The notes under the pieces: model-generated
What the model saw: the letters and a program-made list of their open reading frames with translations, nothing else
What the model was told of the DNA's origin: nothing
Databases searched by the model: none
Made by a program: the position numbers and the translations under genes
Source of the DNA: Gammaproteobacteria bacterium
GTDB taxonomy: Bacteria > Pseudomonadota > Gammaproteobacteria > SZUA-140
Length of the DNA: 36,136 nucleotides
Direction of reading: 5' to 3'
NCBI GenBank assembly: GCA_016124415.1
Contig: WGNS01000056.1
Coordinates: forward strand, 1 to 36,136
Part shown: piece after piece, positions 28,725-36,136 of the stretch
Layout of the letters: every line of letters begins with the position of its first letter
Position numbering within the stretch: the first letter of the stretch is position 1

Positions 28725-29762
28725 CTAAAAGTACATGGTGAGGCGTAACGCAAAGCGGAACCCCTCGAAACGCAATCTGATCGGGCGGTAGTTGTTCAGG
28801 CGCGTCGTGGTATCGCGCGTGTCTTCAGGCGTCGCACTGGGATTCAGGTAACCCAAGGTGCCGTTGCCAAGCTTCACTGCGGGAAGGCCCGTGATATCGG
28901 CCTGATCGTTGTCGGCGAGGTCATTCGTATATTTGACGTCCTTAAGCTCAAAATCCCGATCGCCGAGCAAATAACCGCCCTCAAACCCAAAGGAAAGCCA
29001 GTCGGTCAACATCCATTCCGCACCGCCGCCGAGCTGAGCCATAAACACCGCCGCTGTCTGCGCCTGAACGACGAGGTCCCTTCGTACGCCTAGCAGATCC
29101 TTGATCGGCGTGGACGCGAAACGAAATACATAGTCCTCGCGATAGTCCACGTCGAAAACTTCGTGCAGGGAGAGCCGGCTGTATAATCTGAGTTTGCCTT
29201 CGGTCCTGAAATCGTGACGCCAACCGAACGTGTATTCGGTATAGGAGATACGGCCTCGCCGCTCGCTGTCGACGATGTTTCTGACAAAGTACTGCTGCAA
29301 CGGCAAGTTCCCTTGAGTCACATTCAGCGCCGTCTTTTCCCACGACCCCAAACCGAAAATCAGTGCATTCTCGGGCGTAGCGTGCCAGGCAAATTCGAAC
29401 GCGCCGTAGGCGCCGATCTTGACCGGTTCGATACGGTTGCTATAGACGAACGGAATGATCTCGCTCTTGTTCGTATCGACGACCTGAGAATCCCCTGAAG
29501 TGGTGTTGCCGCCCTCGCGGATCAGTACGGTGGCGTCGCCGAGCAAATTGGATTGAAAGAGGCCGTCGTCCAGCGCGGAAAGCTGCGGAAGATGGCCGCC
29601 GAAAACCAGCGAAAATCCCCAGTAGGGCTCATCGTCTTCCGCCGCGAAGGTAAGCGAAGGCGCGGCAAGCAGCAATGCGAGCGCGCAGACGCGCAGACGC
29701 CGCCCGGCGAACCGGACGCAGCGCCCGGGGTGAAATGCCGCTTTCGCCTTCGATGATTTCAA
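28725..29762 (-). CDS. Putative outer membrane beta-barrel protein
   Basis: The 345-residue product starts at a TTG 16 bases after the MMPL stop. A signal peptide (RRLRVCALALLLAAPSLTFA) precedes EDDEPYWGFSLVFGGHLPQLS. Alternating segments such as YTEYTFGWRHDF, WLSFGFEGGYLLGDR and IRLRFEGFRFALRLTMYF indicate a barrel with a terminal Phe, the usual BAM signal. I recognise no named family. The position suggests it is co-transcribed with the exporter and may be its outer-membrane partner. Confidence 0.75.
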   Translation of the reverse strand: MKSSKAKAAFHPGRCVRFAGRRLRVCALALLLAAPSLTFAAEDDEPYWGFSLVFGGHLPQLSALDDGLFQSNLLGDATVLIREGGNTTSGDSQVVDTNKSEIIPFVYSNRIEPVKIGAYGAFEFAWHATPENALIFGLGSWEKTALNVTQGNLPLQQYFVRNIVDSERRGRISYTEYTFGWRHDFRTEGKLRLYSRLSLHEVFDVDYREDYVFRFASTPIKDLLGVRRDLVVQAQTAAVFMAQLGGGAEWMLTDWLSFGFEGGYLLGDRDFELKDVKYTNDLADNDQADITGLPAVKLGNGTLGYLNPSATPEDTRDTTTRLNNYRPIRLRFEGFRFALRLTMYF

Positions 29763-29778: not shown

Positions 29779-32385
29779 TTACGACGCCGAACCGGCCTCC
29801 TTACCCTGGAAACGCCCCATGGCCCGGAAGTGCGGCTTGAAGGTCGCCAGCGTCAGCGGTAATACCAACAGGGCCGCCGCACAGGACGCCACCATATAGG
29901 CGGCAACGAAATAGCCCAGCTTGATATTCGGCGGGAACTGCGAGAGTCCCAGGATCAGGAAACCGGCCGTAACGACCGCCGCGTTGAAGATGATCGGCTT
30001 ACCGACACCCCGCACTGCCGACAACGTGGCCTTGTCGGCGTCCGCCTTGCGCTCTCGATCGTAAGCGTAACGGTAGACGAAGTGGACGGCGTAGTCGACA
30101 CCGACACCGATCGCCACGCCCGCCGCCAACACGGTCGAAACGTCAAGCGGAATACCGAGCCAACCGGCGCCGCCGGCGACCCAGATCGTCGTCAACGCCA
30201 CGGGAAGAACGGTAAACAGCGCCGCCACGGGTGAACGGAAGAGCAACATCGCGACCAGGAAGATACCGATCTTGGACAACATGATCGCCATGATCTGGCT
30301 CTTGATCAGGAGATCGGCCCAGATATAGGCGTTGTTGGCCGAACCCGCGAAGTTGACCGTGACGCCTGTGCCCGCGAACTCCTTCTTTGCGAAGGCGCGG
30401 ACGTCGTCGATCAGGGCCATCAGACGTTGCGTATGATCGGTCCTGATGTCGATGGTGATGTTGGCGCGCTGGTCGTTGTAGTCGATGACCGAATTCAGCA
30501 ATTCAGGGCGCCCTGACAACGACAGCAGATAGAAGTAGGCGCCGACCTCTTCGGCACTATCGGGCAATACATCGTACTTGGGATCGTCCGCGTGAAAGGT
30601 CTTGTTCGTGCTCTTTAGATAATCCACGATCGAGAGCGATCCGCCGACGTCCTGCTTGGACTCCATAAAGTCCTGCATGCGTTCGATCTTTTTCAGAATG
30701 ACCGGTGACTTGAGGCCGCCCTCCTGCTGGCTGTCCAGGATCACGTTGAGGAAGACCGTACCGTTGAATTTCTCGTTGAGCACGGTATTCGACCGCTCGA
30801 CCTCGCTACCCTTTTTGAAGTCGCTGATCCAGCTGGAATCCACGTAGAGACGGCTGCCCCCGAAACCGAGGAACACCGTCACGAGCGTTATGACGACCGC
30901 GGAAATCGCGCGGCGCTCCATGAGTGCGCGCGCGAGCCCGGTCAGCGCTCGCGTGATCAATCCGGCCTCCGAGTGCACGCGCATTGAACGCTTCCGTTGC
31001 AGGTAGGAGCTGACATGCGGCTTGAGCAGGGTCAGTGCGGCAGGCATCAACAGGACGGACACGAGCCAGCAGAACAGGATGCCGAGCGCGGTGAAAACAC
31101 CGAAGATTCGGAACGGGGGCATCTCCGCCCACCAGAGCGACAGAAAACCTGCACCGGTGGTCAAGGTGGTCACTAGCAGCGGGACGCTGAGCTTCGTCAT
31201 GAGCTGGGCGACGATGACGCGGTTGTCCTTGTATTTGCCATCGATGACGATGTCCTCGTAATGGCTCAGGATATGCAACGCGTCACCGATACCGACCGCA
31301 ACCAGGATTACCGGAAGCATGGTCGAGATCGTATACAGCGGGACGCCCAAGGCCGCCATCAAACCCATCGTCCAGGTGATAGAGATTGCGACCACGAACA
31401 AGGGCAACATCACACCACGCAAATTGCGGAACAGGAAGAACAGAACCACGACGACCGTTACGGTCAGCAGCGGAATCATGAGCTTGGTGTCCTTGAGCGC
31501 GTACTGGCCCGAGGTTACCTCAATGACCGGACGACCCGCCATGTAGAAAAAGTCGCCGTTGCCGGCGGGACGGTCACTGATCGGACTGTCTCCCCACCAC
31601 TGCTGACCGCCGCCGGAGGACCAACCCTTTCCGTCTTTGTCGGACTTATCGGCCTTATCAGCCTTCTTGTCACCATCGGCGTCGGACTTGGCGTCCGAGG
31701 CGTTCTTGCCCTGGGTCCACTGATTGCCCTTCCAGTCACCTCCGCCGTTGGCGTTGCCCCACTTGTTGCCGGGCCAGGCGCCGCCTGCACCACCGCTTCC
31801 CTGTGCAAGTTCGCCGGAAAGGATCCCCTTAATCTGGAAATAGGACTGGTAGCGATTGGCAATGCCCTCCTTGATCTTCGCACGGATCATCGTCGCCTTG
31901 CCGTCCGGCGACACCAGGTTGCCGACGAACAGATCGGGGTGCGAATAGATACGGTTCTTGAGCGCCTCCATCGCGACCGCGTCGGCCGGCACCGAGGGCA
32001 TGAGCGGCACGTTATTGATCGCGTCGTCGGTACCGCTGAAAATCGTCGCCGTCGCCAGGGAGTCCACGTCCAGTTCACGATGAGCCTGCACGCCGGGCAG
32101 TTTTGCGATCTTGCTCGTGATCCGCTCGACGCGTTCCAGCGTCTCCTTGTTGAAGATGCCTTTGTCGTTGACGATCGCAATGATGATGGCGTCACGCGCC
32201 CCAAAGACATCCGCGACGTAGGCGTCATACTTGATGGCGGGGTGATCCTTGGGGAAATAAACGCGGGCGTCGGTTTCCCACTTGAGGCCGCCAAATTGCG
32301 ACAGGGCGGCAACCGTCAAACCGGCCACGATGGCGAGCGTTACCGCAGGAAACCGAATCGGCAGGTTATGAAACCATTTCAACAT
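29779..32385 (-). CDS. RND/MMPL-superfamily exporter with a low-complexity periplasmic insert
   Basis: The 868-residue inner-membrane protein has the RND-like layout: TM1 (about 12-29), periplasmic domain 1, TM2-6 (about 302-455), TM7 (about 494-510), periplasmic domain 2 and TM8-12. The conserved Asp of the proton relay appear as VGIGDALHILSHYED (Asp368) and IGVGVDYAVHF (Asp764). Residues about 194-278 form an unusual insert: Gly/Trp/Asn-rich (NKWGNANGGGDWKGNQW), then Lys/Asp/Ala-rich, then GWSSGGGQQWWGD. Relatives move lipids or hydrophobic molecules. An AAGGGG site precedes the ATG. It lies between two barrel genes in a locus with a LolA-like protein, which points to envelope lipid trafficking. 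Confidence 0.9.
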   Translation of the reverse strand: MLKWFHNLPIRFPAVTLAIVAGLTVAALSQFGGLKWETDARVYFPKDHPAIKYDAYVADVFGARDAIIIAIVNDKGIFNKETLERVERITSKIAKLPGVQAHRELDVDSLATATIFSGTDDAINNVPLMPSVPADAVAMEALKNRIYSHPDLFVGNLVSPDGKATMIRAKIKEGIANRYQSYFQIKGILSGELAQGSGGAGGAWPGNKWGNANGGGDWKGNQWTQGKNASDAKSDADGDKKADKADKSDKDGKGWSSGGGQQWWGDSPISDRPAGNGDFFYMAGRPVIEVTSGQYALKDTKLMIPLLTVTVVVVLFFLFRNLRGVMLPLFVVAISITWTMGLMAALGVPLYTISTMLPVILVAVGIGDALHILSHYEDIVIDGKYKDNRVIVAQLMTKLSVPLLVTTLTTGAGFLSLWWAEMPPFRIFGVFTALGILFCWLVSVLLMPAALTLLKPHVSSYLQRKRSMRVHSEAGLITRALTGLARALMERRAISAVVITLVTVFLGFGGSRLYVDSSWISDFKKGSEVERSNTVLNEKFNGTVFLNVILDSQQEGGLKSPVILKKIERMQDFMESKQDVGGSLSIVDYLKSTNKTFHADDPKYDVLPDSAEEVGAYFYLLSLSGRPELLNSVIDYNDQRANITIDIRTDHTQRLMALIDDVRAFAKKEFAGTGVTVNFAGSANNAYIWADLLIKSQIMAIMLSKIGIFLVAMLLFRSPVAALFTVLPVALTTIWVAGGAGWLGIPLDVSTVLAAGVAIGVGVDYAVHFVYRYAYDRERKADADKATLSAVRGVGKPIIFNAAVVTAGFLILGLSQFPPNIKLGYFVAAYMVASCAAALLVLPLTLATFKPHFRAMGRFQGKEAGSAS

Positions 32386-32743: not shown

Positions 32744-34945
32744 TTAGAACGTATATTTGAACTCCAGGAACAAGCGGTCGTTGTCGCGAAAATTCCCGAT
32801 GAACTGGAAGTGCTGGTCGATCGCCACGATATCCGTCGCTCTACCGGCTCGCGCCGCCACACCGAGCTGCGAACGCTGACCGTAAAAGAGATCAAATCCC
32901 GCCGAAACCTGGAAATGCCCCGTAACGTCGAAGGTCACCTTCGGCTTCAGATAAACCTCTTTCTGGTTGAACAGGATAATCGCCAACAGTGTGAATACGG
33001 CATTGTCCTCCGGCATCGGGTGCCGAACGAACAGATTGAAACTCGTATCGAACTCGTCCTGAATCAGCGCATTGTCATAGTTCAGGATGATCCACTGCAT
33101 GATGCCCGGGGAGAAATCGGTTTTCCACAGATTGAAATCCAACCCCAGTCCCCAGCGAATGTGATCCCGTCTGAGTTCGCCCAGGTTATCGATATAGCCA
33201 TCGTGGTCACGGTCAACGATACCCAGACCGAAGAACTTGTCCTTGACGTAGGCGAATTCGCCTTTGATCACCTGCCCGAAGAACGGACGCTGGAACGTGC
33301 TGCCCAAGATATGGATGCGCGTATATCGGGGCGTGAACGGATTGATGCCGGTCGTATCCGGCTGATCGATCAGGATATGGCGGAACACCACGGGGAAGTC
33401 GTCCCAGGTGTAGAAATAACTAAAGGTCAGGTCGGTGTCGAAGATCGTCTTCTGGACCCTGAATCCCCATTCGCTGTTCTCCAGCTTGTAGTTCTGAGGG
33501 TATGTCGTACCCGGCACCGTTTGCAGCAGTTCCCACTCGGAACCCGAAGGTGCAGGCTTGTGGAACTTGAGCTCGGGGATGAAAATCATCTCGTAGTTGG
33601 TGGACTCCCCGTAATAATCGAGCTTCGCGGACCATAGAGGAATACGATAGTCGATCAAATCCGGCAGAATCAGCTCACGAAAGTCCATCGGATTGATTTC
33701 ATCGACGATGCGAACTCCGGTCAGCACACCCCAGACGATGAATTGCTTGCCGAAGCGCATGTCGTAGTTATCGCCGAGCACGTCGAGGTAGAGCTCACGG
33801 AACGTCGCGACCGAGGAATCCTTTTCCTCTTGCAGCCCTTCGACGAAGTTGAGTGGCTGCAAATCCTCTCGCTCCGCTCTTGCGGTAATCGTGTCGTAGT
33901 CATAGAACTGATAGACGCTGTCTACATAGGCCCATGCACTGGCGCCGATTTCGAAGGTATCGTTGATCGCGTATCGCCCCTTCAGATAGACGATGTTGCG
34001 CATCTTTGTAAACGATCGCGGCTCCTTGAAACGATAAGCCGTCTCGTTCTTCAGGTATCCGCTCAGATTGACGGTTTCACCGAAATCCTGAAGCTTCGTC
34101 AGGCCGTCCTCCCAAATCGAAGGCAAGGTCGAGTCCTCCTCCACACCACCCGGGTTCGGTACCAACGTTTCGTTTTGCCAGATCGATGAGGAAGTACTGG
34201 GCGCAATCTGAGCCGTGCCCAGCGAGCTCGATGGTATCGACTTGGGCGTGATCGTGCCGTTGAGCCAGATCGAGGATACGGCCTCGATTCCAATCGCCTT
34301 GATCGCTCTGCTCACCGGGGCCGGCAATTCGCCGGCGGAAGCAGGCAGAATCGTGCCGTTGCTCCAGATCGACGTTGACGGTTTCACCTCCGAGACCGGC
34401 GCGCGGTATTTCGCGACAGCCACCGGACCCAAGGGGGGCGGCGAGAATTTGGGCGTGATCGTGCCGTCGTCCCAGATCGACCTCGACGGCCTCGGATTCA
34501 GCGCCCTGCGAGTCGCGCCCGGTGGTGAGGGTTTGGGAACGATCGTGCCGTCGCCCCAGATCGACGTCGGCGTCCTCGGACTCAGCGCCCTGCGGGTCGC
34601 GCCCGGTAAACCGGGCTTGGGAACGATCGTGCCATCGCCCCAGATCGACGTCGGCGTCGGCGTCCTCGGACGCAGTGCCCTGCGGGTCGCACCCGGTAGG
34701 CCGGGCTTGGGAGCGATCGTGCCGTTGCCCCAGATCGACGTCGGGGACTTGGTCCCAAACGCCCCGGCCCCCGGACCCAATGGTTCGTGCGTGGGAACGA
34801 TCGTGCCGTCGCTCCAAATCGAGGACGCGCGCGCGGACGGGAGCTGAGGAGAAGCGCAAAACAACAGGGCGACGATCGCGCCGATAAACGATAAAGAGTA
34901 CCTATAAACGGGATGGTGCCGATGTGAGGAGCGCAAGTTACCCAC
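32744..34945 (-). CDS. DUF1302-like outer membrane barrel with N-terminal SIWxxGTIxP repeats
   Basis: The 733-residue exported protein starts at GTG (34945) with AAGG upstream; no better start is visible. The signal peptide ends near SARA (residue 40). Residues 42-286 hold nine copies of S-I-W-x-x-G-T-I-x-P, starting at 42, 70, 100, 128, 156, 192, 225, 254 and 276; the last two are degenerate. Linkers are Pro-rich, and three are nearly identical (PGATRRAL). After about 290 a barrel begins (VNLSGYLKNETAYRF). It contains the DUF1302-like RELYLDVLGDNYDMRFGKQFIVWG and INPMDFREL, and ends EFKYTF. It lies between the LolA-like gene and the MMPL exporter. I know of no protein with this repeat, and its role is unknown. 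Confidence 0.85.
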   Translation of the reverse strand: MGNLRSSHRHHPVYRYSLSFIGAIVALLFCASPQLPSARASSIWSDGTIVPTHEPLGPGAGAFGTKSPTSIWGNGTIAPKPGLPGATRRALRPRTPTPTSIWGDGTIVPKPGLPGATRRALSPRTPTSIWGDGTIVPKPSPPGATRRALNPRPSRSIWDDGTITPKFSPPPLGPVAVAKYRAPVSEVKPSTSIWSNGTILPASAGELPAPVSRAIKAIGIEAVSSIWLNGTITPKSIPSSSLGTAQIAPSTSSSIWQNETLVPNPGGVEEDSTLPSIWEDGLTKLQDFGETVNLSGYLKNETAYRFKEPRSFTKMRNIVYLKGRYAINDTFEIGASAWAYVDSVYQFYDYDTITARAEREDLQPLNFVEGLQEEKDSSVATFRELYLDVLGDNYDMRFGKQFIVWGVLTGVRIVDEINPMDFRELILPDLIDYRIPLWSAKLDYYGESTNYEMIFIPELKFHKPAPSGSEWELLQTVPGTTYPQNYKLENSEWGFRVQKTIFDTDLTFSYFYTWDDFPVVFRHILIDQPDTTGINPFTPRYTRIHILGSTFQRPFFGQVIKGEFAYVKDKFFGLGIVDRDHDGYIDNLGELRRDHIRWGLGLDFNLWKTDFSPGIMQWIILNYDNALIQDEFDTSFNLFVRHPMPEDNAVFTLLAIILFNQKEVYLKPKVTFDVTGHFQVSAGFDLFYGQRSQLGVAARAGRATDIVAIDQHFQFIGNFRDNDRLFLEFKYTF
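34088..34822 (-). repeat. Region encoding nine SIWxxGTIxP repeats
   Basis: This stretch encodes residues 42-286 of the barrel protein. Motif spacing is 28, 30, 28, 28, 36, 33, 29 and 22 residues. Trp is present in all nine copies and GTI in seven. Regular spacing with Pro-rich linkers suggests short beta units on an extended stalk in the periplasm or at the surface. Confidence 0.85.
34481..34738 (-). repeat. Tandem DNA repeat of 84-90 bases, three units
   Basis: Units encoding residues 70-99, 100-127 and 128-155 are nearly identical at DNA level, unlike the outer repeats. Shared stretches include the codons for SIWGDGTIVPKP and PGATRRAL. Lengths stay multiples of three (90, 84, 84), so copy-number change by slippage or recombination would keep the frame. 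Confidence 0.75.
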
Positions 34946-35326: not shown

Positions 35327-36136
35327 TTAGCGTACACCCCGCTTCATCGTCCGTTCGGTGAACAAGCGTTGCGTCAGGCCTACGTTGATCTCGACATCGC
35401 GAATCTCAAAAACAGACGTATGGCCGGATTGCAGATTGTCGATGGTCGCCTGATCCCACACCCAAGCGTCGTCGACCTTCTGCCACGTCATTTTCTGCAC
35501 CTTGAGCAGCGCACCGTGGGTGTCGTAGTACTCAATGCGGGTTTTATTGCAGTCCTTCCAATCCGGAGCGGCCTGATACCAGGACACTTCCTTGCTGTAG
35601 AGCGGACTATCGCCGGAAGGAATCGTCTCAATGACATAATAGGTCTTACCGTCTGCTTGCTCCTCCCGCAACAGGCTATGCTTGTCGTCCTGGGGCAGAT
35701 GCGTCTCGATATCATAGTAAGTCATCTCCGATCCCAAGAAGCTGTCGCCGGGATCGCGTACCGATACTCTGCGAATCGTCTTCAGGCTGGGGAGGTATAA
35801 CCATTGTTCGGCGCTACGGTGGAGCTGAGGCATATAGTTCCAACGCATGAATGCCGTGCCCTTCGCATCCAGAGGGAACTCCGTGAACAGCACCATCTTA
35901 TCGAGAATGTCGTCTTCGCCTTTATTGTCGATCCAATACCTGCGATAGACACGACGTTTTTCGTTACCTTCTGCGTCGCGCAGTATGACCGTCATCCGAC
36001 TACGTTGGTCGTTTCCGAGCGGGGTATCGATATCGCAACGTTGAATGATCTCTTCGGCGGAAGGCGCGGCAGCCGCTTGGCCACCTGCAGCCAGCAACGG
36101 GGCAAAAAACGCTGCCAGCATCGCAATGCCGGTAAA
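35327..36136 (-). CDS. LolA-like outer membrane lipoprotein-sorting protein (5' end beyond window)
   Basis: The frame is open to the window edge. The first ATG in the window (36121) falls inside what looks like a signal peptide (GIAMLAAFFAPLLAAGGQAAAA), so the true start probably lies outside. The mature part begins near APSAEEIIQRCDIDTP. It has the family segments YWIDNKGEDDILDKMVLF, GTAFMRWNY, QWLYLPSLKTIRRVS, FLGSEMTYYDIE and a C-terminal RGVR, also seen in the paralogue at 4049. It lacks that protein's His-rich loop. It should be a periplasmic carrier or sensor of lipids or lipoproteins. Its terminator separates it from the barrel gene, but the shared strand and typical association with MMPL exporters support a common role. 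Confidence 0.85.
   Translation of the reverse strand, partial: FTGIAMLAAFFAPLLAAGGQAAAAPSAEEIIQRCDIDTPLGNDQRSRMTVILRDAEGNEKRRVYRRYWIDNKGEDDILDKMVLFTEFPLDAKGTAFMRWNYMPQLHRSAEQWLYLPSLKTIRRVSVRDPGDSFLGSEMTYYDIETHLPQDDKHSLLREEQADGKTYYVIETIPSGDSPLYSKEVSWYQAAPDWKDCNKTRIEYYDTHGALLKVQKMTWQKVDDAWVWDQATIDNLQSGHTSVFEIRDVEINVGLTQRLFTERTMKRGVR

Follow-up and report, generated by a model that had tools for sequence, protein, structure and literature searches.

Tryptophan-bearing SIWx[DN]GTIxP repeats ahead of the barrel of a DUF1302 outer-membrane protein, a possible periplasmic docking tail

The operon and its described counterparts

The AmeABCD cassette of Castellaniella defragrans brings together the DUF1302 protein AmeA, the LolA-superfamily protein AmeB and the HAE3 RND pump AmeD, and AmeA is described in the accessible part of PMC6394551 as a signal peptide followed by DUF1302, with no repeats mentioned there. 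For Pseudomonas putida, the accessible part of PMC10866462 gives a co-folding study with a predicted complex of PP_0765 and PP_0766, a DUF1302 barrel and its DUF1329 partner from the LolA superfamily; with PP_2018 and PP_2019 this pair is linked to an RND pump and needed for growth on Tween20, and no repeat is described in that part of the paper. Both AmeABCD and PP_0765/0766/2018/2019 handle hydrophobic substrates, according to the same parts of PMC6394551 and PMC10866462. The locus described here belongs to the wider question of how LolA-like carriers pass hydrophobic cargo between an MMPL/RND pump and a DUF1302 barrel.

The window, the whole 36,136-nucleotide stretch of a gammaproteobacterial contig that was analysed, carries four such genes on its minus strand. 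The upstream partner is a gene for a LolA-like periplasmic carrier (35327-36136, with the ATG at 36121; PF17131, E = 2.4e-42), followed by that of a 733-aa outer-membrane protein with a GTG start (32744-34945), that of an MMPL (RND, HAE3-like) inner-membrane exporter (29779-32385; PF03176, E = 6.3e-36) and that of a conserved 345-aa protein, probably of the outer membrane (28725-29762), which has no match in Pfam or NCBIfam. The HAE3 model TIGR00921 matches the MMPL protein at 1.4e-68, yet below the model's cut-off. The 733-aa protein falls within DUF1302 (PF06980), scoring 48.1 bits against a gathering score of 23.2 over residues 330-569 (E = 1.2e-12), and the two Pfam matches bear out the earlier note, which had described repeats fused to an outer-membrane barrel adjoining an MMPL gene.

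As in AmeABCD, DUF1302, LolA-superfamily and HAE3/MMPL genes are adjacent. The four-gene set differs in that it has no counterpart of the COG4447 periplasmic protein AmeC, its fourth gene being another one, and in that the LolA-like protein resembles PF17131 more than DUF1329; the P. putida system, in turn, occupies two separate loci, whereas a single operon is found here. The gene order LolA-like, DUF1302, MMPL, 345-aa is kept in same-family relatives wherever the assembly allows, and paralogous loci often lack the MMPL gene but hold the LolA-like, DUF1302 and 345-aa genes. These neighbours are best explained if the DUF1302 gene supplies the barrel component of a LolA-like/DUF1302/MMPL operon for transport of hydrophobes or lipids, and by analogy with the described cassettes a role in hydrophobic-compound transport is putative.

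The repeat array and its reading frame

The N-terminus of the 733-aa protein, judged from its translation, has a basic start and then a hydrophobic stretch, consistent with a signal peptide of residues 1-40 (34826-34945, minus strand) that is probably cleaved between ARA and SS, directly ahead of the first repeat. The barrel, residues 290-733 (32747-34078, minus strand), is the sole part common to orthologues, and the stretch between the two comprises about 245 Pro-rich residues. Within it lie nine copies starting with SIW, at residues 42, 70, 100, 128, 156, 192, 225, 254 and 276, as the earlier note had reported and the translation confirms; the array thus spans residues 42-285 (34091-34822, minus strand) with all copies in frame. 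The motif SIWx[DN]GTIxP is matched in full by copies 1 to 7, namely SIWSDGTIVP (34793-34822), SIWGNGTIAP (34709-34738), SIWGDGTIVP (34619-34648), SIWGDGTIVP again (34535-34564), SIWDDGTITP (34451-34480), SIWSNGTILP (34343-34372) and SIWLNGTITP (34244-34273). The claim of nine copies of a 10-residue motif therefore stands for these seven and has to be relaxed for copy 8, SIWQNETLVP (34157-34186), and copy 9, SIWEDGLTKL (34091-34120), just ahead of the barrel, both of which are degenerate. The Trp was correctly called invariant (9/9) and GTI mostly so (G 8/9, T 8/9, I 7/9), and the final Pro is present in 8/9. The spacing had been given as about 28-30 residues, but it is not uniform and runs from 22 to 36 (28, 30, 28, 28, 36, 33, 29 and 22). 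The linkers, of 12-26 residues, have a high content of Pro, Ala, Ser and Thr and carry a net charge of +15 over 154 linker residues.

The array is real and did not arise by chance, since shuffles of its own 250 residues contain a mean of 0.1 SIW and at most 2, and since a 24-base core of the repeat occurs seven times where 0.03 occurrences are expected. The possibility that the repeat region had been mistranslated can be set aside: the open reading frame runs on into the barrel, which aligns end to end with orthologues, and the motif codons of copies 1 to 7 change only synonymously, indicating that the frame is correct.

Structure prediction was of low confidence throughout. The whole protein modelled with AlphaFold without an alignment reached a pLDDT of 30.8, and a model of two repeat units built on an alignment of four rows reached 59; the latter model contains a tiny strand-turn-strand, W-G/D-G/T-I, around x-D-G in one of its two copies, at low confidence. 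The repeat region is predicted, again with low confidence, to be mostly unstructured, and the array region of about 245 residues is probably disordered. A Foldseek search with the two-unit model gave no match, and no solved structure matched the barrel profile. Because x[DN]G is a favourable, classic beta-turn, a minimal hairpin is plausible, and each copy is probably such a hairpin or a strand-forming linear motif that displays one Trp.

Distribution and possible source of the repeat

SIW repeats are absent from the N-terminal regions of all 25 related DUF1302 proteins inspected, of which 21 are close orthologues or paralogues and four are distant (L017, L018, L027, L028). At the same point, the close relatives have a linker of about 10-120 residues with unrelated sequences. 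Two relatives (L024 and L016, from genomes G005 and G008) carry long pre-barrel linkers rich in Pro, Ala, Gly and Asp, unrelated to the SIW array. In the closest species, of the same genus (G001), searches recovered neither an orthologous barrel nor the LolA-like gene; its assembly lacks this part of the operon, and the contig with its MMPL gene breaks off within that gene.

The repeat region occurs at one locus in its own genome, and a mobile DNA element was rejected on this ground. No convincing homologue was found in the family (20 genomes), in 369 genomes of the class or, by exact tandem pattern, in 399 genomes of the phylum, and none was found in 84,980 species genomes, phages, plasmids and viral contigs, searched with peptide patterns and a tandem DNA pattern at sensitivities that could miss diverged arrays, these scans being of exact short patterns or single-sequence profiles. 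A separate scan of viral sequences gave no homologue. Weak pattern matches that contained in-frame stops were taken as chance, and the one inspected, in G001, lies antisense to ribosomal-protein genes. After these searches, a wider repeat family was rejected. The earlier view that no named repeat family matches is upheld, the best values being E = 2.6 in Pfam, E = 0.0044 over only 13 residues in PHROGs and E = 1.6 among PDB sequences, with no match in NCBIfam (HAF included). The suggestion of a new family among DUF1302-like proteins encoded beside MMPL genes is not borne out, as the repeat was in none of the relatives inspected and was found nowhere else in these collections. Nothing on such repeats came up in the literature searched. 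As far as the collections searched show, the array is apparently confined to one gene in one genome and looks like a recent species-level invention; what is new is a young motif array, apparently limited to one species, and it sits in the variable linker of an established type of outer-membrane protein.

The tandem DNA pattern did match one HAF-repeat protein, from a Phycisphaerales bacterium and the sole genome match, as well as several WxxG proteins of phages, and all of these differ in architecture from the window's protein. The HAF repeat (TIGR02913) has a similar W-x-[ND]-G-T turn but is longer, with IN..GQVVG, unlike the SIW repeat; membership was rejected because TIGR02913 gave no hit to the window's repeats up to E 10, while the Phycisphaerales HAF protein (L052), used as control, scored 1.7e-49. 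The five-residue phage repeats (viral contigs L053-L063) likewise hold W-x-[DN]-G-T words in series, but their units stand back to back without Pro-rich linkers in phage proteins, with no homology to the SIW array. In four of these contigs (L053, L055, L058, L060), adjacent long phage ORFs consist almost wholly of 5-residue W-x-x-G-x repeats.

A local source for the motif is suggested by the relatives, 16 of 17 of which, when aligned, carry a Trp among the last 16 residues ahead of the first barrel strand, as in AAMWDFLPQDLRLSGY compared with SIWEDGLTKLQDFGETVNLSGY in the window. Copy 9 may on this basis be the ancestral segment, with copies 1 to 8 as its duplicates; apart from the Trp and roughly where it lies, the pre-barrel segments of the relatives and the window resemble each other weakly. 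A 14-base exact direct repeat joins the barrel-coding sequence at 34068-34081 to linker 5 at 34375-34388, in different reading frames, which hints at an untidy DNA duplication.

Age of the copies and the roles considered

Identity at synonymous sites of the motif is 0.81, compared with 0.42 predicted from codon usage, and without the young units 2-4 it is still 0.73 compared with 0.41 (p = 0.001). This excess uniformity of the motif codons points to a recent common source of the copies, and on this sequence evidence the array is young; part of the motif identity is simply due to youth, because the synonymous codons are too alike. The youngest part, detected by TRF as 84-bp tandem units (34457-34744), includes copies 2 to 4 and extends into copy 5. 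Linkers of units 2-4 are still alignable and those elsewhere mostly are not; units 2-4 differ about equally at codon positions 1, 2 and 3, and their linkers diverge about as neutral sequence would. In copies 1 to 7, 3 of the 147 sites in the seven motif codons differ, each of them synonymously, compared with 18 of the 63 sites in the three x codons (Fisher 3e-8), and motif third positions vary at 3/42 compared with 0/98 for first and second positions (p = 0.026). These p-values overstate the case, given that the copies share descent and that the site classes were picked once the motif had been seen. This suggests, from the codons, that the motif is kept at the protein level while x positions and linkers drift, and a conserved motif between drifting linkers is the pattern of a short-linear-motif docking array.

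We tentatively put first, ahead of neutral expansion, the reading in which the array is a lineage-specific periplasmic tether, a multivalent docking tail for a periplasmic partner. The linker between signal peptide and barrel would have grown by in-gene duplication in this lineage, giving a Pro-rich, probably disordered tail with nine copies of SIWx[DN]GTIxP on what is presumably the periplasmic side, where the repeated beta-turn motifs, with one Trp each, might capture a periplasmic partner. The favoured candidate is the LolA-like carrier from the same operon, which once captured would be held near the barrel mouth. This reading, drawn from one genome, is supported by the conserved operon order and by linkers that drift against constant motif codons, and the variable linker with its pre-barrel Trp in 16/17 relatives is a plausible source of the motif. 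The low-confidence turn in the two-unit model and the complex predicted for the P. putida barrel and its LolA-superfamily partner also speak for it; the share of motif identity owed to youth and the near-neutral divergence of the linkers in units 2-4 speak against it. The array would not be essential to the system, because the operons of relatives do without it. A like working principle is seen in carboxysomal CsoS2, a disordered chain whose repeated short motifs bind one partner many times; the compartment and partner differ, and no sequence relation is expected. A docking tail would make the peptide motif a direct handle on the partner that touches the barrel. The fuller proposal, that a newly evolved one-lineage tail, copied from the Trp segment that precedes this very barrel, brings the lipid carrier of the periplasm to the pore as a bridge of disordered repeats across the periplasm in place of a membrane-fusion protein, is unlikely.

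Nearly as likely as the docking tail is a minisatellite-like expansion, neutral or nearly so, of a linker for which any length will do, the youth of the copies alone accounting for the conserved motif. The absence of repeats from every relative checked, the unrelated linkers of about 10-120 aa in their place, the synonymous identity too high for old copies, the even differences of units 2-4 across codon positions and the out-of-frame piece of barrel-coding sequence in linker 5, suggesting haphazard DNA patching, all agree with such an expansion, which is less easily reconciled with the lack of any amino-acid change at the seven motif positions of copies 1 to 7 beside 18 changes in the x codons, or with linkers between copies 5-9 that can no longer be aligned even as copies 5 to 7 keep an intact motif. 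If true, it would offer a clean example of tandem linker expansion with function-like regularity. We give very little credence to a DNA- or RNA-level element, a repeated site of 24-30 bp translated incidentally, for although the synonymous identity and the sevenfold 24-base core would fit it, there is a single locus in the genome and the excess of third-position changes is the signature of a protein motif. The earlier note had also raised a stalk, taken here as a rigid one, or a binder of peptidoglycan or polysaccharide, which the regular Trp display and positively charged linkers would suit; either seems improbable given that no Pfam, NCBIfam, PHROG or PDB family matches and that the repeats are predicted, with low confidence, to be mostly unstructured. 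Equally doubtful is the earlier note's docking, in this species, to the Trp/Gly-rich insert in the MMPL exporter encoded next to the barrel (residues 195-277; 31555-31803, minus strand). The two genes are adjacent, and the array and the insert would each lie disordered in the periplasm and bear Trp, but the case has been weakened because all 15 MMPL orthologues carry the insert and no relative's barrel has SIW repeats, so that co-occurrence does not support the pair and the insert can do without the repeats.

The MMPL insert measures 49-89 residues in the 15 orthologues, the window included, and contains 7-11% Trp compared with about 1.2% in the rest of the protein. It is a low-complexity segment in the first periplasmic part, conserved in composition and variable in sequence (window and loci L068-L081), and is arguably of more interest than the SIW repeat.
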